A DNA stretch of 47,408 nt from an uncultured Candidatus Saccharibacteria bacterium (GTDB lineage Bacteria > Patescibacteriota > Saccharimonadia > Saccharimonadales > Saccharimonadaceae): assembly GCA_947304135.1 (NCBI GenBank), contig CAMYZZ010000005.1:1-47408 (forward strand), read 5' to 3'. A program made the position numbers and the translations under genes. The notes beneath the pieces were generated by a model. The model saw nothing but the letters and a program-made list of their open reading frames with translations. It was not told the origin of the DNA and made no database searches. Shown in pieces: positions 13,963 through 35,533 of the stretch (positions are counted from its first letter, which is position 1; each line of letters opens with the position of its first letter).

Positions 13963-15024
13963 AACGACAAGCGACTAGAACAGCTCAAAACGGACTTTTT
14001 TGATGCCTGGAGCAAACTGAAAATTGACGAAAAACTAGACGAACAGGCAAAACTTGAAGACGAAGTCGCCGATCCAGAAATCTGGAAAAACCCCGAAAAC
14101 GCTCGCGAAAAAAACGAGAGACTAGCCCGCCTCAAAGAATCAACTGGAGACTGGCAAATCCTAAAAATACAGATTAACGACATCTCCGAGCTACTCGAAC
14201 TTTCAGACGAAGGCCTAGAAAGTGAAATTGAGGCCCAGATTGACGCCATGGAACAAAATTTTAGCAAGCTCAAACAATCTCTAAGATTCACCGGGCCATA
14301 CGATCATAACGATGCTATCATCCGCATCACCGCTGGCGCTGGCGGCACAGAAGCCATGGACTGGGCTGGAATGCTAGAACGAATGTATCTTCGTTTTTTC
14401 GAAAAAGAGGGAATCAAACCTACTTTGATTGAACGTACAGAAGGTGAAGAAGCCGGCATCAAGACAGCAGTTTATGAGTTAGCCGGCACAGATGTTTACG
14501 GTAAACTAAAAAGTGAGCATGGCACTCACCGCCTCGTTCGGCTTAGTCCATTTAACGCAGATAATCTCCGTCAAACCTCTTTCTCTCTAGTAGAAATCTT
14601 GCCAGTCGTCAAGAGTGATACCGATGTCAAAATCGACGATAAGGATCTCCGCATAGATGTTTATCACTCTGGCGGTCACGGCGGCCAGTCCGTCAATACA
14701 ACTAACTCCGCCGTCCGCATTACACATTTGCCCACCAACACTGTAGTCGCCATCCAGAATGAGCGCTCTCAGCTTCAGAACAAAGAAAAAGCCATGGAAA
14801 TTTTGCGTGGCAAGCTCGCACAGATGCAGATCGAACAGCAAGCCGAATCTATCGACAAACTCCGCGCCGGCGAGTCGGCCTCCTGGGGGCAGCAAATCAG
14901 AAATTACGTCCTTCAGCCATACAAGCTCGTCAAAGACACTCGTACAAAATACGAAGAAAAAGATGCTGATGCAGTTCTAGACGGTAAAATCGGCGGCTTT
15001 ATTGACGCATTTCTTGATTCTTAA
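13960..15024 (+). CDS. prfB: Peptide chain release factor 2
   Basis: RF2 ends translation at UAA and UGA. Its presence shows that UGA is a stop in this genome. The GGQ motif is in SGGHGGQSVNTTNSAVRI. The codon-reading tripeptide is SPF (RLSPFNADN). The 354-aa frame is continuous, so the programmed +1 frameshift that controls prfB in many bacteria is absent. The ATG at 13960 fits the leaderless pattern better than the in-frame TTG at 13921, which falls in the palindrome arm. Confidence 0.96.
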   Translation: MNDKRLEQLKTDFFDAWSKLKIDEKLDEQAKLEDEVADPEIWKNPENAREKNERLARLKESTGDWQILKIQINDISELLELSDEGLESEIEAQIDAMEQNFSKLKQSLRFTGPYDHNDAIIRITAGAGGTEAMDWAGMLERMYLRFFEKEGIKPTLIERTEGEEAGIKTAVYELAGTDVYGKLKSEHGTHRLVRLSPFNADNLRQTSFSLVEILPVVKSDTDVKIDDKDLRIDVYHSGGHGGQSVNTTNSAVRITHLPTNTVVAIQNERSQLQNKEKAMEILRGKLAQMQIEQQAESIDKLRAGESASWGQQIRNYVLQPYKLVKDTRTKYEEKDADAVLDGKIGGFIDAFLDS

Positions 15025-15042
15025 TTTCGCTTATGTTATCAT
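15014..15042 (+). promoter_or_regulatory. Promoter of ftsEX inside the end of prfB
   Basis: TTGATT (15014-15019), a 17-bp spacer and TATCAT (15037-15042), then 6 nt to the ATG at 15049. The -35 box lies in the last prfB codons. Confidence 0.75.
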
Positions 15043-15048
15043 AGTTAT

Positions 15049-16035
15049 ATGATATTACTTGATCAAGTCACGAAAACTTACCGCGGCGATTTACATCCTG
15101 CGCTTGATCATGTTTCCTTACATATAGAACCAAACGAGTTTGTTTTTCTCGTTGGCAAATCCGGTGCTGGCAAATCCACCCTCATGAAAATGATCACCAA
15201 AGAAGAGGTTCCAGACGCCGGCAAAATCATCATCGGTGGAATTGACCTAGATTACGTCAAAAAGCGTTACATCCCTCACTACCGTCGTAGGCTTGGTGTG
15301 GTTTTCCAAGATTTTAAGCTTCTTCCTGGTCGTACAGTTTACGAAAACGTCGCTTTCGCCCTAGAAATTGCCGGCATGAGCAATCGCGAGATCGACAAAA
15401 CCGTTCCAAAAGTTCTAGAGCTTGTTGGGCTTTCTGACGCTGCCAAAAAATTCCCACGCGAGCTCTCTGGTGGTATGGCGCAGCGCGTCTCTATTGCCCG
15501 CTCCGTCGCTCGTCAACCAAAAATCCTCATCGCCGACGAGCCTACCGGCAATCTTGACAAGATTACCAGAAAAGAAATCATCGATTTACTTCAAAAAATC
15601 AACGATTTTGGCACCACAGTCCTCGTCACCACTCACGACGAAAACATCGTCAATAATTTACAAAAACGCGTCGTCACTCTAAAAGACGGCAAGGTCGTCT
15701 CTGATCAGAAAATCAACGGTATTTACCGCCTCGACGGCAACGCCACACCTGTTCCTATGCCTCGCGTCATCCGTACTGAGCAAGCCATGGCAGCACGCCC
15801 TATGCAGCCAGCGGCCGCTCAACCAAAACCCGTCGCAAAACCCGCTGCAAAAACACCCGTAAAACCAAGAACCGTCTCTCGAGATCCAAACGCCTACACC
15901 GTCACTACTCGTCCGGCCAAAAAAGTCCCCGTCGCAGCAGCCCCAAAAATGCCAACGCTCCGTTCTGCTCGCCCAGCCACCACGCCAGCCAATGTGCGTG
16001 ATCCACGTCGTTATCGTTCAAGGAGGGTCGTCTAA
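15049..16035 (+). CDS. ftsE: Cell-division ATP-binding protein FtsE with long C-terminal tail
   Basis: FtsE is the ATPase of the FtsEX complex, which gates septal peptidoglycan hydrolases. Walker A is GKSGAGKS (36-43), the signature is LSGGMAQR and Walker B is ILIADEPT. The catalytic core ends near residue 225. A further 100 residues of Pro/Ala/Lys/Arg-rich low-complexity sequence follow, which ordinary FtsE lacks, and they end RRYRSRRVV. The tail is basic, so it could contact membrane lipids or nucleic acid. That is a guess. The gene overlaps ftsX in TAATG. Confidence 0.95.
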   Translation: MILLDQVTKTYRGDLHPALDHVSLHIEPNEFVFLVGKSGAGKSTLMKMITKEEVPDAGKIIIGGIDLDYVKKRYIPHYRRRLGVVFQDFKLLPGRTVYENVAFALEIAGMSNREIDKTVPKVLELVGLSDAAKKFPRELSGGMAQRVSIARSVARQPKILIADEPTGNLDKITRKEIIDLLQKINDFGTTVLVTTHDENIVNNLQKRVVTLKDGKVVSDQKINGIYRLDGNATPVPMPRVIRTEQAMAARPMQPAAAQPKPVAKPAAKTPVKPRTVSRDPNAYTVTTRPAKKVPVAAAPKMPTLRSARPATTPANVRDPRRYRSRRVV

Positions 16036-26074: not shown

Positions 26075-26103
26075 TTGACTTAGACTAAAAAATATACTAC
26101 AAT
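26075..26103 (+). promoter_or_regulatory. Candidate promoter of the kinase-like/VWA/PurA-like operon
   Basis: TTGACT (26075-26080), a 17-bp spacer and TACAAT (26098-26103), starting 5 bp after tRNA-Leu. The predicted start point falls at the foot of the following terminator hairpin. Confidence 0.6.
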
Positions 26104-26110
26104 AAATCAC

Positions 26111-26141
26111 GGTGCGCCACTTCGGTGGTGCATAGTTTTTT
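26111..26141 (+). terminator. Terminator after tRNA-Leu, possible attenuator of the accessory operon
   Basis: The stem TGCGCCAC/GTGGTGCA has a TTCG tetraloop, with T6 at 26136-26141. It can end the tRNA transcript. Because it also lies downstream of the 26075 promoter, it would attenuate that transcript unless bypassed. Confidence 0.8.
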
Positions 26142-26178
26142 AAGATCTTGATTATACTACGGAAAGGAGGTGACTGGC

Positions 26179-26979
26179 TTGAAAGTCAGGAACATTGAAG
26201 TGGGCCCTCTCATTGGAGTAGCTCCAAGTTTTCGCGTCTATCCTGGCAAAACAGACGACGGCAAATCCGTCATCCTAAAAGTCGCCAAAACCTTTGAAGA
26301 TGGCGACGTGCTTATGAAAGATGCTAGCAGGTTCACAAGGCTAAATACCTTTGAAAAAGAGCTGGCCAAATTCGAGATGGAGCAAAACGGAAGCAACTCC
26401 CATTATGATTGGTTGTTTGCACATCTTGAGTCGTCTTTTTTGGAACCGACTCAAAACGACCGGCGCATCAATGTCTACACCACGCCAGAAATCGAAATTG
26501 ACAAGCTAATCCCTTTGTCAAAGCTGCGCCTCGATACAGAAATCGACGCGCGCACCAGTATCTGGATCTTGGGACGTCTTTTCAAATTCTATAGTTTGTT
26601 CGAACTCCGAGCAGTCAGCGAAGAGGCGGTCTATCCTAAGTATCCATTTTTTTGGATTGATGATTTTCTCATCGCACCAAAAGAGCATCGCTTAGTTTAT
26701 TACAACTATTCCGATGAGTACACCAGTTTCTATGCAAACGAAGAAGTTAAGGCAGTTTCACATTACATCAAAGAGTGGGCAGTCTGCGGAAACGATCCAG
26801 CAGAACAAGAATACTCAAATCTGCTTGACGATTTTGTAAAAACTGGACGCGAATCATTCGCCAAAGCTCACCGTGAGCTCTACGAACTTGTCGAGGAGCA
26901 CTGGGGATTCAAGTACCATCCTTTTACGCATCGCGACCAAGGAACAATTATTTGGAATACCATTGAAAAGGGGGAATAA
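26179..26979 (+). CDS. Protein-kinase-like fold protein, probably inactive, accessory operon gene 1
   Basis: This 266-aa protein has a kinase-like N-lobe: a loose Gly-rich turn (GPLIGVAPSFRVYPGKT, 9-25) and a beta3-type lysine, K34 in VILKVA. In the C-lobe, where kinases have HRD and DFG, this protein reads HRLVYYNYSDE, so the catalytic and metal-binding residues appear lost. I infer a pseudokinase or a distant kinase-like fold, and homology should be tested by structure. TTG at 26179 is the likely start because AAGGAGG (26164-26170) lies 8 nt upstream. An in-frame GTG at 26170 overlaps the site. It is followed after 2 nt by a VWA gene, a pairing seen in several bacterial stress and conflict systems. 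Confidence 0.55.
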   Translation: MKVRNIEVGPLIGVAPSFRVYPGKTDDGKSVILKVAKTFEDGDVLMKDASRFTRLNTFEKELAKFEMEQNGSNSHYDWLFAHLESSFLEPTQNDRRINVYTTPEIEIDKLIPLSKLRLDTEIDARTSIWILGRLFKFYSLFELRAVSEEAVYPKYPFFWIDDFLIAPKEHRLVYYNYSDEYTSFYANEEVKAVSHYIKEWAVCGNDPAEQEYSNLLDDFVKTGRESFAKAHRELYELVEEHWGFKYHPFTHRDQGTIIWNTIEKGE

Positions 26980-26981
26980 TA

Positions 26982-28079
26982 ATGGGACATCAAACATTTT
27001 CAGTAGACGACTACCGCAAAGCACGCCAAACATACGGCGTGACTGGGGACACTGGAGTCACAAGAAACGCTGAAATACGCGCCAGAGACACTGGCAAACT
27101 CAGCGATATTGTTGACCCGGCCATCAATCCGACTCGCTTTTCCAAAATCCGTTTGAACCCTCACAAGAAAAAGTGGGTCGCAACACTCGGCTGTCCAATG
27201 GACATCGAAGTTAGTTGCGATACTACTGGCTCTATGGGTGGAGAAGTCGACACAGAAATGGCAGTTCTGCCAGAGCTCTACGATGCCGTGTCAAAAGTTT
27301 TACCGGGTTACGATCCGCAGCTTTGCCTCGGTATTTTTGGTGATTGTGGCGACAAATTCGTAATGTGTCGTCCACAGTTCGAGATGGAAGCGCCAAAAAT
27401 CGTTAACTATCTCAAAGAGATGGCACCCCAAAGGTGCGGATGTGGTAACCATGGCGAAGATCCTCAGTATGCAATGTTCGCCCGCGCTTATTTGACCGAC
27501 GCATATACTAATCGTATCGGTCTCAAGGGCTATCATTTTATCATTACTGACGAGCCTTATCACAATCACCTAAAAAGAGATCAGATTGAACGCATTTTTG
27601 GAGAGGACGTTTTTAAAAACGACCTCAAAGAAATGAGCGAGATCCCTTCTGTCCAGAAAATGACAGCCGAGCTAAAGCAAAAGACACACCAGTTTATACT
27701 AGTTCTAGCTAAACAGTACTATACTGATACGCTCGACATGTGGATTAATCTTTGTGGTAGAAACTCTGTTATTGTCATAGAGCATACTAGACAACTACCA
27801 AAGATTATCTCCGCCATCATTGGCCTAACCGAAGGCACGCTCGATATCGCAGAGCTAGAAGAGTATCTTGGCGATGCACCAAACAAGTCATACTTGATCA
27901 GTCAGCTTTCAAACATCGATATTGGTGCACAGGCCAAACTAAGACATGCGCTGTCTCACCCGGTTCCAAAAGCTGGTGATATTTTCAGAAACAAAAGTGA
28001 CACTTGGCCAATCCAGCCAGGAGAAACCTCAGAAGAAGACGAACCAGAAGAAACTCCGGGTCATATTGAGTATCTATAA
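26982..28079 (+). CDS. VWA-domain protein with MIDAS motif, accessory operon gene 2
   Basis: This 365-aa protein is built round a von Willebrand A domain (about residues 70-270). The metal-ion site begins D80-T-T-G-S84-M, the DxTxS form. A later acidic residue comes from FIITDEPYHN. Between them is a Cys-rich loop (QRCGCGNHGEDP) that could bind a metal. The C-terminal 25 residues are acidic and disordered. VWA/MIDAS domains bind partner proteins through Mg. Here the likely partners are the kinase-like protein before it and the enzyme after it. GGGGG lies 7 nt before the ATG. Confidence 0.8.
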   Translation: MGHQTFSVDDYRKARQTYGVTGDTGVTRNAEIRARDTGKLSDIVDPAINPTRFSKIRLNPHKKKWVATLGCPMDIEVSCDTTGSMGGEVDTEMAVLPELYDAVSKVLPGYDPQLCLGIFGDCGDKFVMCRPQFEMEAPKIVNYLKEMAPQRCGCGNHGEDPQYAMFARAYLTDAYTNRIGLKGYHFIITDEPYHNHLKRDQIERIFGEDVFKNDLKEMSEIPSVQKMTAELKQKTHQFILVLAKQYYTDTLDMWINLCGRNSVIVIEHTRQLPKIISAIIGLTEGTLDIAELEEYLGDAPNKSYLISQLSNIDIGAQAKLRHALSHPVPKAGDIFRNKSDTWPIQPGETSEEDEPEETPGHIEYL

Positions 28080-28127
28080 TCAAGATGTTTAACAATTTGG
28101 TTTTACAAGGCTAGGAGGTGCAAATCT

Positions 28128-29450
28128 ATGGAAGAAATCTATGTCGTGACCGATCTCGGTCCAGGCGACGGAGGAAAGGGTGGTATAGTCCATGCGCTCT
28201 CGCAAAAATATGATGCAGATATCATCATCAAACGCGGTGGTGCACAAGGTTCCCATGGTGTCCGCACCTCCTCTGGAGAAAGCTTCAATTTTTCTCAATG
28301 GGGTTGCGGGACGCTCGAGGGAATACCGACCTTCTTATCGGAAGAAATGATTATTTCGCCGGTTGGACTAAGAAACGAATCGGAAGCGCTTAAAAGACTC
28401 GGGATCTATAATCCATTTGAACTTTTAACTTGCGACCCTTGGTGCATCGTTGCTACGCCTTTTCACCAAATTGCTTCTCAGCTCGAGGAGCTTCTGCGCG
28501 GAGACAATCCGCGTGGTACGGTTGGAACGGGCGTTGGACAAGCTTATCGCCTATCCAAAACCCTAGGAAAGGAAGCGACGATTCGAGCGACCGAACTATC
28601 CTATAAAAAAGTAGTCCGCGCCAAGCTAAAAAATCAACTCGAATTTTATCGAGAAAAATACGCTAACATTACAAAAGATTCTGGTATGCCCTGCGATGCA
28701 AAACTCATCGCCGAAAACCTCTGTCTGCTCCATGATGATGGCTACATAGATTACTGCGCTGATTTATTTGAAAATATTAGCACCAAGCTATACCTAAAAC
28801 AGCTCGGTGACATTATCAAAAATAATCGCACAGCAGTTGTCGAATGTTCACACGGAGTTTTGACAGATTCGGTCACAGGATTGTATCCTCACGTTAGTGC
28901 TATCAGGACTCTACCGAGATTTGCCGAAAAAATGTTGAGGATAGCTGGGTACGACGGCCCAATTGTCAACTACGCCGTCCACCGCGCATACGAAATCAGA
29001 CACGGAGCTGGCCCAATGCCAACTTACGATGCCGATTTTACCGCACGGATGTTGCCCGGCAGCCACAAAGAAGAGAATCGTTGGCAGGGAATTGTTCGTG
29101 CCGGAGCACTAGATTTAAATCTGCTAAGCTACGCACTAGCTGCTAGCAGCGAGACAAAATTCGATAGTTTGTGCCTGACTTGGTTCGATCAAATTTTAGC
29201 AAACGATCGTATTTGGCCAATTTGTACTAGTTACAAAAACGCCAAAGAAAACTACGAAACCTACACAGATTTTTTCGACCGTGCCGAACCAAACATAATA
29301 AAGCACTCTGTCAAAATGAAGTTATCGCCAACCAGTTACTCGCTTTTTGAGTACGTAGAAAATATTCTTGGAGCATATATAGACGTTCCGCTAGAAATTC
29401 TTTCAACTGGGCCAACAGAGTTAGACAAAATCTACTCTAGCAAAATATAA
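28128..29450 (+). CDS. Divergent adenylosuccinate synthetase (PurA-like), accessory operon gene 3
   Basis: PurA joins IMP and aspartate using GTP. This 440-aa protein keeps the PurA layout but is distant. The start loop reads GPGDGGKG (11-18), with the catalytic Asp (D14) kept and the canonical GDEGKGK changed. GGAQGSHG replaces GGHNAGHT, keeping the last His. GTVGTGVGQAY replaces GTTGRGIGPAY. VECSHGVLTDSVTGLYPHV and GAGPMPT match later blocks. It is therefore probably an active ligase on a different nucleotide or amino acid, as with phage PurZ, rather than the housekeeping enzyme. AGGAGG lies upstream. It sits between a VWA and a SAM-like protein. Confidence 0.75.
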   Translation: MEEIYVVTDLGPGDGGKGGIVHALSQKYDADIIIKRGGAQGSHGVRTSSGESFNFSQWGCGTLEGIPTFLSEEMIISPVGLRNESEALKRLGIYNPFELLTCDPWCIVATPFHQIASQLEELLRGDNPRGTVGTGVGQAYRLSKTLGKEATIRATELSYKKVVRAKLKNQLEFYREKYANITKDSGMPCDAKLIAENLCLLHDDGYIDYCADLFENISTKLYLKQLGDIIKNNRTAVVECSHGVLTDSVTGLYPHVSAIRTLPRFAEKMLRIAGYDGPIVNYAVHRAYEIRHGAGPMPTYDADFTARMLPGSHKEENRWQGIVRAGALDLNLLSYALAASSETKFDSLCLTWFDQILANDRIWPICTSYKNAKENYETYTDFFDRAEPNIIKHSVKMKLSPTSYSLFEYVENILGAYIDVPLEILSTGPTELDKIYSSKI

Positions 29451-29465
29451 AGGAGGGGGACACCC

Positions 29466-30656
29466 ATGAGTGAAGAAATGAATATTACAACCGAAACAAC
29501 CGAGGCTGCAGAAGCAACAAAAGCTCCAGCAACGAACGAGGTAAGCACAAAACTTGCCGAATACGGCGCCGACGATGCTACTATCAAAAAAGTAATCGAC
29601 GAGCTCGGAGTAGAAGAACTCGACGATCTTGCTTCGCTTGAAGTTACCGATTTGACTGGCGCAGGCATGAAACTTGCAAAAGCGCGCAAACTTGTTGCAG
29701 ACTTAAAAAACATTGCCAAGCCTGTTGCAAACGTTGCCGCCGCAGAAACGCGCGCCATCGGAGCACAGTTCGAAGCTTTGCTACCATCGATTCCATCAGA
29801 CGAATCTTGGCTCAACGCCCTCAAGACTGGTGGTGTTCTCAAGGTTGATGAATCATCATACATTGCAGCCATCCGCGCAGCCCTAGCAGACCGCGCTGGA
29901 TTATACGATGTACCAAAAGCACTTTCCGAAGCGATGGAAAAATACGCCGACGAAACCGAAGAGCAAGTTGATCCAACTTTCTATGCTTTGCGCAAGTCTT
30001 TGACTCGCCGTACATATGGCGACATCTTTGCCGCTATTGACGGTCTAGACGGAAGCTTTATCACGGAAAATCGTCGCAAGGAATTCTTGAGTCGCATCCG
30101 CAGTGTTTTGTGGCCAGCAATCTACGAGAGTTATCTTGATCTAGATGGCTGGTATCAAACCTGGAAAGCAAGCTTTACCGACCCTTCGATGCTAATCGCT
30201 GCCATTGGCGGCGGATTTAACGGCGGAGCAGCCGGCATGAGCATGGTTGCACCACCAGACACCGCCGCTTTGCACGACGCTGGTGACGCCTTAGTGGATT
30301 CTATCAACCGCGTTTTCCGCGGCACCGGAGTTCAAGTTGCAGCCGCCATGGCATACGACGCAAACACCATCAGAAACACTTTAGAAGACCCTCGTCTTCC
30401 ATCAATGATCGGTGTCAAAAACCGCGAAATGATGCTTAAGAAAATCGGAGCAAACGTCTCTAGCAACTACATTCGTCTCGAGCAAAATCTCGTCAAATAC
30501 GTTTTAGCCTTTGCTAAGCACGACACAATTACATCCGACGTAGAAACAAACTACTTCGTTGCGTTGTGGCAACTAGGTACACAAATCAACTGGACCGAAC
30601 TTGGCGGAGAAAGAGCCACTAGTAAAACTGGCTTGACCGGCGAACGCGTCTTGTAA
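29466..30656 (+). CDS. SAM-like-domain protein of unknown function, accessory operon gene 4
   Basis: I do not recognise the main domain of this 396-aa protein. After a Thr/Glu/Ala-rich start (1-25), residues about 27-80 resemble a sterile-alpha-motif or helix-hairpin-helix module (ELGVEELDDLASLEVTDL, then GAGMKLAKARKLVADL). The rest is mainly helical, with a Gly-rich patch (IAAIGGGFNGGAAGMS) near 240 that could be a membrane-inserting or nucleotide-facing loop. No catalytic motif stands out. AAGGAGGGGG lies before the ATG. A strong terminator follows. SAM-like modules often hold multi-protein complexes together, which would suit an operon of this kind. Confidence 0.6.
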   Translation: MSEEMNITTETTEAAEATKAPATNEVSTKLAEYGADDATIKKVIDELGVEELDDLASLEVTDLTGAGMKLAKARKLVADLKNIAKPVANVAAAETRAIGAQFEALLPSIPSDESWLNALKTGGVLKVDESSYIAAIRAALADRAGLYDVPKALSEAMEKYADETEEQVDPTFYALRKSLTRRTYGDIFAAIDGLDGSFITENRRKEFLSRIRSVLWPAIYESYLDLDGWYQTWKASFTDPSMLIAAIGGGFNGGAAGMSMVAPPDTAALHDAGDALVDSINRVFRGTGVQVAAAMAYDANTIRNTLEDPRLPSMIGVKNREMMLKKIGANVSSNYIRLEQNLVKYVLAFAKHDTITSDVETNYFVALWQLGTQINWTELGGERATSKTGLTGERVL

Positions 30657-30668
30657 ATCACGCACATT

Positions 30669-30700
30669 AAAAAGGCCCCCACGGGGGCCTTTTCTTTTTG
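30669..30700. terminator. Terminator between the accessory operon and the convergent NTase gene
   Basis: AAAAGGCCCCC/GGGGGCCTTTT stem (11 bp) with T-rich flanks on both strands. It serves both convergent units. Confidence 0.9.
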
Positions 30701-30706
30701 ATTGGT

Positions 30707-31891
30707 TTATAGCCAGACATATTTTACAAAAAGCATCGTTGCAATTTTGCGATACTCATCGTCATAAAATGGGCAGTCGCCATCCATTTCCTCAGGAACA
30801 GGGAATTGATTTCTCCCCGTAAACCTCACAAATCCTTTGTGGAGTAGACGATATTGCAAAAGATCGCTTTCTAGCCGCTCAAGTGCTTGACGTCTTAATC
30901 CGTATTGCAAAGCATAGTCTGGTGAACTTACATACAAGTCCGCAATCCTATCCGCAATTTGCTCTAAAGAGTCAGCCACTTCGGTACCGCCAAGCCATAT
31001 TGAGTTTAAATATATATGTGCCGCGTGCGGGCTTCCCGGTCTAAAATCTGGATCCATCTCTAGATCTTTTAGATTCCAAACATCTAGATCCGATCTTTTT
31101 GTGCCATAGCCTTTCAGCTGAGAACCACCCACTAGTACAATTTCTTTTGGGTCTAACCTCGCCAATATTTCCTCAAGCTGTGGCATCAACGTTTCGATAT
31201 TTTTAGAAAACGGACCCATGAGTTTTGCATTTGGAGTTAATAACTCCACCGGATGATTCCGCTCATTCAGCCATTCCTGCCTCTTTTTAGAAACATAAAG
31301 TGGCCTGCTTCTTTTTCTCTCCGGCAGACGTGCGGTCTTAGCTTCCAACAAATACAGCTCATCATAGCCTGGAATCCCTTTCTCGCGAATAAATCCCCAA
31401 GTGTCTTTAAAGCTCTGCAGCAGGACCAAATCATCGCGATTACACTCAAGGATATCAAAAATATTCTCTACGCTAATAAAACCGTCCCTCAGGAGCCATG
31501 GCGTTAAATGTGCACATTTTACAACGCGCTCCAAACCGCCACGCGGCCTAGCATCAAGCTCAAAGCAGTCCCCCAGGTGAAAATTCTCACGCACGTCATA
31601 AACATGAAGCAGTCTATACCAAGCATCCATATACGCCCTACAGAAAGGCTCTGGCGCAGAGTTCAAGATACTTAGCGGTAAATAAAGCAACAACCTCTCA
31701 GAATCTCTATTAGAAAGCAAATCTGCGCAAACCTTATAGAACTGCTTCTTGATCGTCTTGTCTTCGTTATTCTTTTTGTTATTTTCAAAATATCGGCCAA
31801 AGATTTCAATCTGCTCCGAATGTACCCCATGACGCAAAAGCCTGCGTTCAATAACAGGCTCCAAAATTCCTGGCTTTAATATGTTGGTCAT
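30707..31891 (-). CDS. Nucleotidyltransferase-fold protein
   Basis: This 394-aa protein has a polymerase-beta-type nucleotidyltransferase motif in its C-terminal half: VGGSQLKGYGTKRSDLDVW. The GS pair is at 256-257 and the DxD metal ligands are at D268 and D270. The first 220 residues are helical with no recognised motif. NTases of this minimal type add AMP or other nucleotides to proteins, RNAs or small molecules and are common in toxin-antitoxin and defence loci. AGGAGGGGG lies 5 nt before the ATG. It uses the same strong Shine-Dalgarno style as the convergent four-gene operon, so it may belong to the same accessory cassette. Confidence 0.75.
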   Translation of the reverse strand: MTNILKPGILEPVIERRLLRHGVHSEQIEIFGRYFENNKKNNEDKTIKKQFYKVCADLLSNRDSERLLLYLPLSILNSAPEPFCRAYMDAWYRLLHVYDVRENFHLGDCFELDARPRGGLERVVKCAHLTPWLLRDGFISVENIFDILECNRDDLVLLQSFKDTWGFIREKGIPGYDELYLLEAKTARLPERKRSRPLYVSKKRQEWLNERNHPVELLTPNAKLMGPFSKNIETLMPQLEEILARLDPKEIVLVGGSQLKGYGTKRSDLDVWNLKDLEMDPDFRPGSPHAAHIYLNSIWLGGTEVADSLEQIADRIADLYVSSPDYALQYGLRRQALERLESDLLQYRLLHKGFVRFTGRNQFPVPEEMDGDCPFYDDEYRKIATMLFVKYVWL

Positions 31892-32304: not shown

Positions 32305-32991
32305 AACAGCCGGCTGACACCCGGTTTTTCCTATGTCGCACAATCTACATTGCGCGACATTAGGGACAATAATAATTATACCGTGAGAAAGTTGGCGGAT
32401 GGGAATTGCTGGATGGTAAACAACCTAAAATATAGCCTTTCTGCCAACTCTACCCGCATTGGCGTAAACCATAGTACTAATGAGACGTTTGAGTTTAATA
32501 CGGGGACAGCGTGCGAGACTGATGGTGCATGTATTATGAATGGAAATACTGTCATGACAGAACAAGTTACGAATGGCGGCTACTACTATAGCTGGTATGC
32601 GGCTACGGCTGGCACTGGAACACCTTCTATGGCTTCTAGTGATGCTGCTGGATCTATCTGTCCAAGAGGCTGGAGATTGCCAGCTAACTACACTATAGAT
32701 CCCACTAAATCTTATGGGAGCATAACAGATGCCTACGTAAACGGCCACGGCTACATCTCGGGCAATTACGTAACTACGCTAGAATCTGTCCCGCTATCTT
32801 TTATGCGTGCCGGACAATTTCAAAGCGGGTCATTTAATAATGGTAACGTATTTAGTCTTAATTGGTCTAGTACCGCCGATGCCTCAACTGCGGGAAGGAA
32901 CCTTGCATATACTTCGACCTATTTATACTCGCAGCAATCCGACGTTAAGTATGTAGGCCGCTCTGTTCGCTGCGTGAATACTGATCTTTAG
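32305..32991 (+). pseudogene. Silent 5'-truncated copy of a FISUMP-type surface domain (alternative C-terminal cassette)
   Basis: The open frame begins after a stop at 32302 and has no promoter, Shine-Dalgarno sequence or signal peptide. From 32335 it is homologous to the C-terminal domain of the surface protein at 33027 (VAQSTLRDIRD, VRKLADGNCWMVNNLK, SICPRGWRLP, WSST, SVRCVN) but differs strongly between these blocks. The domain keeps all conserved positions, has no internal stop and ends in TAG. It looks like an intact spare cassette rather than decay. It lies tail-to-tail with the expressed gene. Its first 29 bases (32335-32363) are an exact inverted repeat of the matching bases there, in the same reading frame. 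Confidence 0.8.
32335..32363 (+). repeat. 29-bp perfect inverted repeat, copy A (silent cassette)
   Basis: Identical in reverse complement to 33622-33650. Both copies encode VAQSTLRDI in the same frame. A lower-similarity match extends about 70 bp further into each domain. Confidence 0.95.
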
Positions 32992-33026: not shown

Positions 33027-34709
33027 TTAATCATTTACACATCTCACAGAAAAACCGGCTTGTTTTCCATTGCCACAAGAGATACCCTCGCAAACAATAT
33101 TATTGCCTGAACCAATGCGCATATAGTATGCGCCTATATCGGATTGCGCAGTACTGCTCCAGTAATAGCCTCTCTCGGTTTCCCCCATGCTGCCTATATA
33201 ATACCCACGCTGAAAAAGATTAGTAGGGTTACCGGTTACATCCGCGCTGTAACCATATGCATCAGCTAAGCCCTGAAAACTCCCTGTATTGTTTCTCGTT
33301 GGCAACTTCCAGTTCTTTGGACAGATTGACGAACCTACATCGCCCGAAGTGGTAGAATAGGTACCTTGCCCCGCAGTTGCAACAATCCAACTATATAGCG
33401 TACCGAGAGTTGCATCTCCACTAGCATATAATTGCTGAGTATTTATACAAGTTTCGTCATAATCAGCACACCACCCACTAGCTGTTGACGCTGGAAGTGA
33501 ATAGCTAAGTGTAGTATCTGAGTCTGCTGAGGTAAGTGTCTTTGGCCCGGTTAGCTTCAAGTTGTTTACCATCCAACAATTCCCATCCGCCAGCTTCCTC
33601 ACCACATAAGTATTATCGTCTCTAATGTCGCGCAATGTAGATTGTGCGACGTATGGCTGGTTGTCGGCGGTGACGGTGGATTCGTAAGTTACCCTGTCGG
33701 TGATGACAGTGACGGCGCTACCAGTAGCATTGGATGGGGTGTACACTGTGTTGCAAATTGCTGTCGTCATTTGTTGCATTGTGGTGATAGTCCAGAAGTT
33801 CTGTTCCCACTGCGCGGTTAGAGTGGCTGTGCCGGTGTAGTCAATATCTCCCACAATAGTAATAGTATCGCCTGGCTGATATGTGGTAGAACCATCGCTA
33901 TAGCCGGTGAAGCCGTAGCCATCTCTGGTTGGTGCGGTAGATGGAATTGTAAAAGTATAGGAAGAAGCTACGCCAGAGTAAGTCATGGTTTCTGGGAGAC
34001 CGGAGACGCCTGTGCCACCAGGTTCAAAGTACAGCGAGTAGTCAGTTGGGACGGGGTTACCTACGGCAGAGAAAGTGAGCTGGTTTTTGTAGACACCAGA
34101 TGGTTTCTCTACGTTGACGTTCATACCAATGTAGACTGGGGTCTTAGTTCCGGCAGTTGGGGTGTCATGGGAACCTATCTGGGTTTGGACAGAGTTTGCT
34201 GGGACTGGACTGTAGGTAGCGTCATCCAAGCTGTAGGCCCATTTGTTGGCATTGGTAGTGCCTGGGGCGGCGGTAGAGAGATCAGTCTTGGAGACTGCGG
34301 CTGCTACGGTTGGGATAGTGTAGCTAGTATTGGTTTGGTTTACTAAGTCTGTGGTATAGGTACTAGTAGAAGGGTTTTGGTAGCTAGAGTTCATGTAGAG
34401 TTTGTAGCCAGTTTTGTTGGCTGTACTTACCTCTACTTTGAAGTTGTCTGTGACAAAAGTGCCGGTTGGGGCGGCGGTGGTGGAGAGGTCGAGTTCGGTA
34501 ATTTCTGCTGTGGCAGCGCTGTTCAGGATACGGATGGCGACGCCGTTGACGAGGTTGACGTTAATATCTGTATGGGACTCAGAAATGGAGAAAGCATTAG
34601 GACTGCTAGATAGGGAGCCACAAAATGACAATCCTAGACAGGAGGCACCCACAAGAATCATCGTGGCGACTAGTGTCCTATGCTTTCTCGCATTTCTGAT
34701 TATACCCAT
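33027..34709 (-). CDS. Phase-variable secreted surface protein with B-repeat and FISUMP-like C-terminal domain
   Basis: This 560-aa protein has a basic start and a signal/anchor helix (about 12-33). A Thr/Ser-rich extracellular region (about 45-250) follows. Next is one InlB/Listeria-Bacteroides-type B-repeat (TRDGYGFTGYSDGSTTYQPGD ... LTAQW). The C-terminal domain runs from residue 354, with the FISUMP-like pattern YVVRKLADGNCWMVNNL and the ending GFSVRCVND. It is probably surface-exposed and adhesive. The ATG at 34709 is preferred: it follows the -10 by 10 nt and gives a proper signal peptide. Longer in-frame starts cross the promoter and the G tract. Two variation signals, the G10 promoter tract and the invertible domain, flank it. 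Confidence 0.85.
   Translation of the reverse strand: MGIIRNARKHRTLVATMILVGASCLGLSFCGSLSSSPNAFSISESHTDINVNLVNGVAIRILNSAATAEITELDLSTTAAPTGTFVTDNFKVEVSTANKTGYKLYMNSSYQNPSTSTYTTDLVNQTNTSYTIPTVAAAVSKTDLSTAAPGTTNANKWAYSLDDATYSPVPANSVQTQIGSHDTPTAGTKTPVYIGMNVNVEKPSGVYKNQLTFSAVGNPVPTDYSLYFEPGGTGVSGLPETMTYSGVASSYTFTIPSTAPTRDGYGFTGYSDGSTTYQPGDTITIVGDIDYTGTATLTAQWEQNFWTITTMQQMTTAICNTVYTPSNATGSAVTVITDRVTYESTVTADNQPYVAQSTLRDIRDDNTYVVRKLADGNCWMVNNLKLTGPKTLTSADSDTTLSYSLPASTASGWCADYDETCINTQQLYASGDATLGTLYSWIVATAGQGTYSTTSGDVGSSICPKNWKLPTRNNTGSFQGLADAYGYSADVTGNPTNLFQRGYYIGSMGETERGYYWSSTAQSDIGAYYMRIGSGNNIVCEGISCGNGKQAGFSVRCVND
33622..33650 (-). repeat. 29-bp perfect inverted repeat, copy B (expressed gene)
   Basis: Begins at codon 354 of the surface protein. 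It is the reverse complement of 32335-32363. 1258 bp lie between the two copies. Confidence 0.95.
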
Positions 34710-34719
34710 TATGCTTTTA

Positions 34720-34750
34720 ATTGTACCCCCCCCCCGGCACGAATTGTCAA
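34720..34750 (-). promoter_or_regulatory. Phase-variable promoter: G10 tract between -35 and -10
   Basis: On the minus strand, TTGACA (forward 34745-34750), a 19-bp spacer of nine mixed bases plus ten G, and TACAAT (forward 34720-34725). Loss of two G would give the ideal 17-bp spacer. The present length predicts weak activity. Confidence 0.85.
34726..34735. repeat. Homopolymeric C/G tract of 10
   Basis: Ten C on the plus strand, lying wholly inside the surface-protein promoter spacer. I saw no comparable G/C run elsewhere in the window. Confidence 0.95.
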
Positions 34751-34771
34751 TAGGCGGTTTTGTGCTAAAAT
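34744..34771 (+). promoter_or_regulatory. Promoter of the 34778 acyltransferase, sharing its -35 with the phase-variable promoter
   Basis: TTGTCA (34744-34749), a 16-bp spacer and TAAAAT (34766-34771), then 6 nt to the GTG. The -35 boxes of the two divergent promoters overlap by five bases. Confidence 0.7.
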
Positions 34772-34777
34772 ATAAGC

Positions 34778-35533
34778 GTGAAGACATATTATTATCATGA
34801 CTTTTCCGACAACCTGGTAGAGACTAAAAATCAGTCCAAAAAAGTCCCAGAAAACTACAAATGGGTCAAGAAAAACCCCTTGTATATTGGGCTAGGCTGG
34901 ATTCTTTTTCAGATTCTAAAACTAGTTGCCCTGGTTTATGGCAAATTTGCGCTAGGTCTCAAAATTATAGGGAAAAGAAAACTCAAAATCGACTCCGGCT
35001 ATTATATTTTTGCCAACCATACTCAGCCGCTCGGCGATGTTTTTAACCCGGCGCTATATTCTGTCAAAAAGCCATATTATATTTGCGACAGTTCCAACCT
35101 TGGCATTCCAATTCTTGGGCCTATTCTGCCACTCGTTGGTGCCTTGCCGATTCCAGAATCCATCCGCGGCAAAAAGAAATTGTTTGACGCAATATCGTAT
35201 CGTGCTAAATCTGGCAACGCAATTATTATTTATCCAGAGGCCCATGTCTGGCCATATTGCACTTTTATCCGCCCGTTTGAGACAACGGCTTTTAATTTTC
35301 CAATCCGTGATAATCTTCCATCTTTCACTGCCACTACGATTTATAAAAAACGCAAATTCCGCAAAAAACCACGCACAGTTATAAAAATTGACGGCCCATT
35401 TTATCCAAATTACGACTTAGAGAAAAAGGAGCGTATAAGAGCACTACACATGGAAATTACCAACCAGCTTGTCAAGCGTACCCAAGAATCCAACATGGAA
35501 TATATTAGATACGAGAAAAAAGATTGTAATTAG
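34778..35533 (+). CDS. PlsC-like acyltransferase
   Basis: This is a membrane-associated glycerolipid acyltransferase-like protein of 251 aa. A hydrophobic helix spans about 37-60. The motif NHTQPLGD has five residues between His and Asp, one more than the classic HX4D. The later block YPEAHVWPY occupies the place of FPEG. GTG at 34778 is taken as start because a -10 box lies 6 nt upstream, the local leaderless pattern. It probably moves an acyl chain onto a lysolipid or glycolipid. The altered spacing leaves activity uncertain. Confidence 0.75.
   Translation: MKTYYYHDFSDNLVETKNQSKKVPENYKWVKKNPLYIGLGWILFQILKLVALVYGKFALGLKIIGKRKLKIDSGYYIFANHTQPLGDVFNPALYSVKKPYYICDSSNLGIPILGPILPLVGALPIPESIRGKKKLFDAISYRAKSGNAIIIYPEAHVWPYCTFIRPFETTAFNFPIRDNLPSFTATTIYKKRKFRKKPRTVIKIDGPFYPNYDLEKKERIRALHMEITNQLVKRTQESNMEYIRYEKKDCN

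Follow-up and report, generated by a model that had tools for sequence, protein, structure and literature searches.

Few enzymes of living cells are as conserved as adenylosuccinate synthetase, PurA, and we know of only one earlier change of its job, namely PurZ, which belongs to the 2-aminoadenine DNA of phages. The present work concerns a further PurA-like protein, P, encoded in the window, by which we mean the whole analysed stretch of 47,408 nucleotides from an uncultured Candidatus Saccharibacteria bacterium (assembly GCA_947304135.1, contig CAMYZZ010000005.1, positions 1 to 47,408, forward strand), whose Saccharibacterial genome is 0.71 Mb in size and 97% complete. P stands in a cassette of five genes together with a kinase-fold protein (K), a protein with the VWA/MIDAS motif (V), a protein with a SAM/HhH-like head (S) and a putative nucleotidyltransferase (N). 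Its relatives, in which the catalytic core appears intact and the amine pocket rebuilt, are carried by phages, by large plasmids and by reduced, parasitic bacteria.

The described systems resemble this cassette each in part. PurZ and PurZ0 of the 2-aminoadenine phages are, like P, phage-borne PurA paralogues under the same PHROG-style annotation, but PurZ has Ser where P has Asp at position 13, phiVC8 PurZ has Asn where P keeps Asp333, and P comes without DatZ. The TerY-P triad, composed of a VWA protein, a PP2C phosphatase and a kinase (YegL-PphC-YegI in E. coli), likewise places a VWA gene beside a kinase-fold protein; in the cassette, however, there is no PP2C among K, V, P, S and N, the kinase is degenerate, and a PurA-like ligase stands instead. 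In Bixzunavirus the kinase, hypothetical and PurA-like genes (gp267, 268 and 270 of Gizmo, with a small gene between) form the same triad in the same order but without S or N, and genome records annotate them one by one, while the searchable papers do not treat them as a system. No description of the triad or of the module was found in the open-access literature, which was the limit of our literature search.

P as a third branch of the PurA family

P (28128-29450, plus strand, 440 amino acids) is PurA-like beyond doubt by its profile matches, as the initial annotation of this stretch had proposed: it reaches 130 bits against PF00709, whose cut-off is 27 (E=1.3e-37), and 3e-37 in a PDB profile search. 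It nevertheless falls far below the purA equivalog cut-offs, with 85.9 vs 395.55 bits for TIGR00184 and 95.6 vs 402 bits for NF002223. For the residue numbering, 61 P sequences from Patescibacteria, phages and plasmids were aligned with E. coli PurA and phiVC8 PurZ. Besides the fold and the P-loop-like GDxGKG, P shares with PurA Asp13 (60/61), Lys16 (61/61), His41 (61/61), Arg305 (59/61) and the guanine-binding Asp333 (60/61). It differs from PurA in that Val273 is replaced by His (61/61), Thr301 by Gln (60/61), Asn38 by Gln (59/61) and Thr300 mostly by Trp or another aromatic (Trp, Phe or Tyr), while T129 is lost and Arg303 is not conserved; moreover it has a VWA partner, and there is no PurB in the genome. 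The same pattern is seen in 61 further phage P sequences from a later scan (D13, K16 and H41 in 61/61, H273 in 60/61, Q301 in 56/61), and over both sets Asp stands at position 13 in 121/122. From the E. coli structures, we take T301 and V273 to be aspartate-contacting positions of PurA. Arg303 of PurA contacts aspartate and the ribose O2', and PurZ keeps the aspartate-contacting loop (PMC8342488), whereas P has it replaced.

In the tree the P sequences form a clade without PurA or PurZ with a support of 96/97, within which bacterial, plasmid and phage members are intermixed, although PurZ is represented by a single row, which is a very long branch. As far as its sequence tells, P makes up a third branch of the PurA family, set in a module for which no description was found, and many phage genes labelled 'PurA-like' or '2-aminooxy adenylosuccinate synthetase' are probably neither PurA nor PurZ.

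It could be argued that P is simply a divergent adenylosuccinate synthetase for AMP supply whose neighbours are incidental, since it matches PF00709 well over the cut-off and keeps the catalytic Asp and His. However, the source genome gives no purB (TIGR00928) match and no second purA, purB is over cut-off in none of 40 relatives while 14/14 control genomes match, and other members of the order do have a PurA of the canonical type (X_L008, X_L009). With the low equivalog score, the replacement of the aspartate positions by invariant other residues and the strict coupling to V described below also standing against it, we regard such a role as very unlikely.

Coupling of P to V

V (26982-28079, plus strand, 365 amino acids, with a Met-Gly start) carries the invariant MIDAS residues D80-x-T-x-S84, D121 and D190, and hhalign brings this motif of the V profile into register with YegL (E=2e-4) and YfbK (E=0.004), two VWA proteins of E. 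coli, while seven non-VWA controls give E>=0.25. No Pfam VWA model matches V, and the PDB profile search with the V alignment returned no significant relative; motif and profile together point to the VWA/MIDAS protein that had been suggested initially.

Gene presence was surveyed in 295 genomes of the family Saccharimonadaceae, where V occurs in 36, P (counted at E<1e-40) in 38, S in 37 and N in 38, and all four co-occur in 31. Every pair among them gives a Fisher p<1e-29, with p=1e-37 for V and P, so the co-occurrence of the cassette genes is far beyond chance. Outside the bacteria, nearly every V or P locus in IMG/VR has the other gene as a neighbour, and most have K too. As a test of the V-P pairing, a phage V profile with search patterns lying inside V was scanned, and 372 viral contigs were matched; the 62 kept loci were new, with P in 61 and K in 49. 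V and P are near-obligate neighbours.

Four P genes have no V within 12-15 kb, and all of them have lost essential motifs: position 13 is Asn in the P of L007/L095, which has also lost Gln301 and Arg305, and likewise in that of L128, where the 300 loop falls in a gap, and those of L126 and L127 are without GDxGKG. P genes adjoining V are intact. The lone broken genes (L126, L127, L128, L095) remain long open reading frames and are possibly repurposed paralogues.

V has a peculiar N-terminus. Residue 2 is Gly in 39/46 representatives (<60% identity), a 40th being L046 if its better-placed start is used, and in the later phage set 59/61 V proteins start with Met-Gly; between Saccharibacteria and phages, where identity is about 25%, this Gly hardly varies, and it is followed by an often aromatic residue 6 and by Tyr at position 11. 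Among the four P-less V proteins, those of L089, L085 and L130 carry Ser or Ala at residue 2 and the one on a Rhodovulum plasmid keeps Gly, and two or three V proteins with P are without Gly2 (L079, L083, L129). For Gly2 against P presence a hand-calculated Fisher test gives p of about 0.005, with only four P-less V proteins in it. At the other end, Patescibacterial V proteins terminate in aromatic-Leu (YL, WL), this tail being conserved and the region preceding it not.

The core triad in phages and on plasmids

Large phages and plasmids commonly carry the K-V-P triad, which the initial annotation had overlooked outside this locus. The best PHROG matches are phrog_1211 ('2-aminooxy adenylosuccinate synthetase') for P, phrog_2971 for V (E=3e-10 for the window copy) and phrog_3043 for K. 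In the mycobacteriophages Gizmo and Tonenili, an annotated kinase, a hypothetical protein and a PurA-like gene stand in the K-V-P order and were confirmed by profile, and in one 408-kb phage contig (L037/L071) the five genes share a strand. No phage match came from tblastn with K and S, but profile searches did find K there. Vibrio and Rhizobium phages have V-P without a recognisable K; in these phages a methionine-rich protein is encoded upstream of V-P (L072 4123-4842, L073 3693-4484).

Such a distribution raises the question whether P, in the manner of PurZ, supplies phages with a modified deoxynucleotide for their DNA, the bacterial cassettes being captured phage genes. The annotation of phrog_1211, the position of the phage triad among replication and nucleotide genes (e.g. 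ThyX and RNR) and the intermixing of phage P with that of the candidate phyla radiation in the tree would agree with it, and Pfam on 97 phage neighbour proteins gave mixed nucleotide and replication genes with no single partner. DatZ, which is used by only some PurZ phages, was however found by PF12917 in 0/13 P-bearing phage records, several of them possibly fragments, with the phiVC8 control positive, and the Saccharibacterial cassettes are without a deoxynucleoside monophosphate kinase or polymerase. Moreover, PurZ has Ser13 in all 147 phage members (PMC12884076) where P has Asp. A PurZ-like role therefore seems to us unlikely, though not negligible.

In Tsukamurella, Rhodococcus opacus and Allorhizobium the plasmid-borne, profile-checked K-V-P is accompanied by a NUDIX gene. 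The NrtR winged helix is clear in the Allorhizobium and Rhodovulum copies and of weak score in the Tsukamurella copy, and because of this winged helix the NUDIX neighbours are more likely regulators than nucleotide hydrolases; they suggest a control by ADP-ribose or a related nucleotide. NrtR-type NUDIX genes beside K-V-P or K-V on plasmids lie at L096 10407-11036, L098 6118-6840 and L099 6002-7129.

A role of the module in NAD or pyridine-nucleotide metabolism might be read from these regulators, and likewise from the NAD-salvage genes upstream in Rhizobium phage RHph_TM39, from the phage flanks, which hold one NAPRTase and one NrtR, and from an isochorismatase-family gene after P in L090, as this family includes nicotinamidases. 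Yet such links are few, with none in Saccharibacteria, and P has an invariant Asp13, a residue which acts on the purine N1 in PurA; the probability of this role is thus slight. The module appears to be exchanged among bacteria, plasmids and large phages.

The predicted reaction

As the catalytic residues are kept and the aspartate positions replaced, P should activate a 6-oxopurine nucleotide with GTP but should not use free aspartate. We tentatively predict, at somewhat short of an even chance, that P is a GTP-dependent purine ligase which uses a non-aspartate amine and is partnered by V. The data show the gene content, its joint inheritance, its mobility, the replaced residues of P and the decay of P without V; for what P catalyses, what its partners K, S and N contribute and what end the module serves, we infer the following scheme. 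P would phosphorylate, with GTP, the 6-oxygen of a purine nucleotide and would then displace it with an amine other than free L-aspartate, acting only together with V, which would either supply the amine substrate or be itself the substrate. K would be a regulatory or scaffold partner of V, whereas S and N would have been added in Patescibacteria, probably to sense or use the product, and the whole module would make an N6-modified purine, either as a small molecule or attached to a protein. P probably joins a non-aspartate group to a purine nucleotide, a reaction of which the PurA family has no described example; the chemistry assumed is nevertheless PurA's own, hence P would represent a variant branch rather than a wholly new category.

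Several points weigh against this scheme. The identity of P to true PurA is about 25%, so that the loop near residue 300 could be mis-set by one residue; Arg305 is kept, which would allow a carboxylate-bearing amine and even aspartate bound in another way; and the VWA fold of V is assigned from its motif and profile. The V-P pairing, on the other hand, makes the scheme directly and cheaply testable.

A more specific form would take V itself as the amine substrate, its N-terminal Gly being joined by P, after removal of Met, to carbon 6 of the purine nucleotide. The closed aspartate pocket (Thr300 aromatic, Thr301 Gln), the V-P pairing, the decay of P without V and the Ala or Ser in 3/4 P-less V proteins hint at it weakly, and we consider it rather improbable. 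If it were true, it would be a new protein modification, with a MIDAS protein charged with a nucleotide.

Extent and mobility of the cassette

The initial annotation had described a four-gene operon from K to S. The four open reading frames are indeed on the same strand and tightly spaced, the gaps K/V, V/P and P/S being 2, 48 and 15 nt, with a Shine-Dalgarno site before each of them and a strong terminator hairpin at 30670-30693, and their linkage is borne out by the survey above; the proposed extent, however, was too short, as a fifth gene had been missed. N (30707-31891, minus strand, 394 amino acids) is the next, convergent gene after S in 20/21 Patescibacterial loci and lies a few kb upstream in the remaining one, while no flanking gene family outside K to N is common to more than 4/25 loci. 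Because N adjoins S in 20/21 loci while the genes beyond differ, the cassette is K-V-P-S-N; N belongs to the unit, which extends past 30700, and the terminator separates the convergent S and N.

The cassette is present in 12% of the family genomes at sites with unrelated flanks, and V was found in 11/379 genomes sampled over the phylum. The K-V-P-S order is kept in Saccharibacteria, in one Paceibacterota and in one Falkowbacteria genome, and in L033 K-V-P is joined by another SAM-headed gene. The cassette is acquired and mobile, as had been supposed, although one argument given for it, the neighbouring tRNA gene, does not hold: none of the relatives scanned has a tRNA bordering the cassette, and tRNA-Leu is a neighbour peculiar to this genome.

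As to the function of such a mobile unit, a TerY-P-like anti-phage or stress signalling may be considered, in which the kinase and the VWA protein form a switch and P makes the signal; Ter-type and defence systems had been named at the outset. A VWA protein, a kinase fold and a nucleotidyltransferase are here combined in a patchy, mobile element, and NrtR-type NUDIX regulators adjoin K-V-P on plasmids. However, the conserved set has no PP2C phosphatase or Ter genes, K has no catalytic-loop Asp, the triad is stable in lytic phage genomes (many Bixzunavirus records), and the flanks are not defence islands but mostly housekeeping genes. None of K, V, P and S matched a defence protein model of PADLOC 2.0.0 at E<=1, and a PADLOC scan of 117 flanking proteins returned MADS genes and a few ATPases without a pattern of enrichment. 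We judge this signalling role to be unlikely as well.

K, S and N

K (26179-26979, plus strand, 266 amino acids) has, we are confident from its structure model, a protein-kinase fold, in line with the initial reading: the AlphaFold model has a pLDDT of 94.4 and a pTM of 0.90, its best VIA match is PknB with Z 17.5, and Foldseek also leads to protein kinases. The PDB profile search with the K alignment gave weak kinase scores only, and the fold is settled by the model. The catalytic-loop (HRD) Asp is absent in all members aligned and the DFG Asp in the window copy; in phage K proteins the Asn and Asp that bind metal are still in place (HGAITPDN, DW), both of which Saccharibacterial K has lost. 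K is thus pseudokinase-like, and its phosphotransfer has probably been lost.

In other Patescibacteria, K-V pairs adjoin a pyruvate-kinase-like barrel protein (L093 5109-6422, L089 11150-12253, L090 6824-7774). L093 is without P, in L089 a second K-V pair follows a K-less V-P, and in L090 V and P are separated by the barrel gene. The K-V pair may act with more than one enzyme. L031 also has a solitary second K paralogue (14836-15678), 8.8 kb from the first.

S (29466-30656, plus strand, 396 amino acids) has at residues 22-88 an apparent SAM/HhH-like head, of a type that occurs in NusA and Rad51, which agrees with the SAM-like protein first noticed; over 69 residues it matches the SAM domain of ASK3 with a VIA Z of 7.4. 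The AlphaFold model of S has a pLDDT of 70.8, and the all-alpha body is without a clear relative. Among Patescibacteria S is conserved, and it recurs in one 408-kb phage contig. For N, the motif GS...KGY...D.D is invariant in 15 sequences, and the homologue in L028 scores 28.9 bits against the Pfam Polbeta cut-off of 26.9, with the window N itself below the cut-off; by motif and profile N is assigned as a polymerase-beta-type nucleotidyltransferase of the polymerase-beta superfamily (GGSQLKGYGTKRSDLDV). Neither the S nor the N alignment retrieved a significant relative in PDB profile searches.

The regulatory leader

A sigma-70-type promoter (TTGACT-17-TACAAT, 26075-26103, plus strand) stands before K, as in other Saccharibacterial loci. 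K is taken to start at TTG 26179, because GTG 26170 falls within the Shine-Dalgarno site and the K genes of relatives start at the equivalent position, two of them with ATG. In the interval between promoter and K (26104-26178), a hairpin at 26112-26133 on the plus strand, also overlooked initially, begins 9 nt past the promoter and is followed on its 3' side by a T-rich stretch, then by the conserved single-stranded motif AGTTATTTAATGTCTTGATT, and then by the K Shine-Dalgarno site. The hairpin is kept across Saccharibacterial cassettes, where its sequence varies and its pairing holds: among 12 sequences, 6 of the 8 pairs show changes on both sides and 94.7% of the cells are paired, against 25-58% in slid alignments and with 0/500 shuffles reaching the observed level. 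In an Rfam scan the leader was without a match, the tRNA being the sole match. The covarying hairpin is a likely cis-regulatory RNA, an attenuator or leader, and could act as an attenuator.

Beyond the cassette, the window open reading frames 32350-32991 and 33027-34787, on opposite strands, clustered together and appear to share a related domain, to which a 1935-aa protein next to the L015 cassette is related as well.

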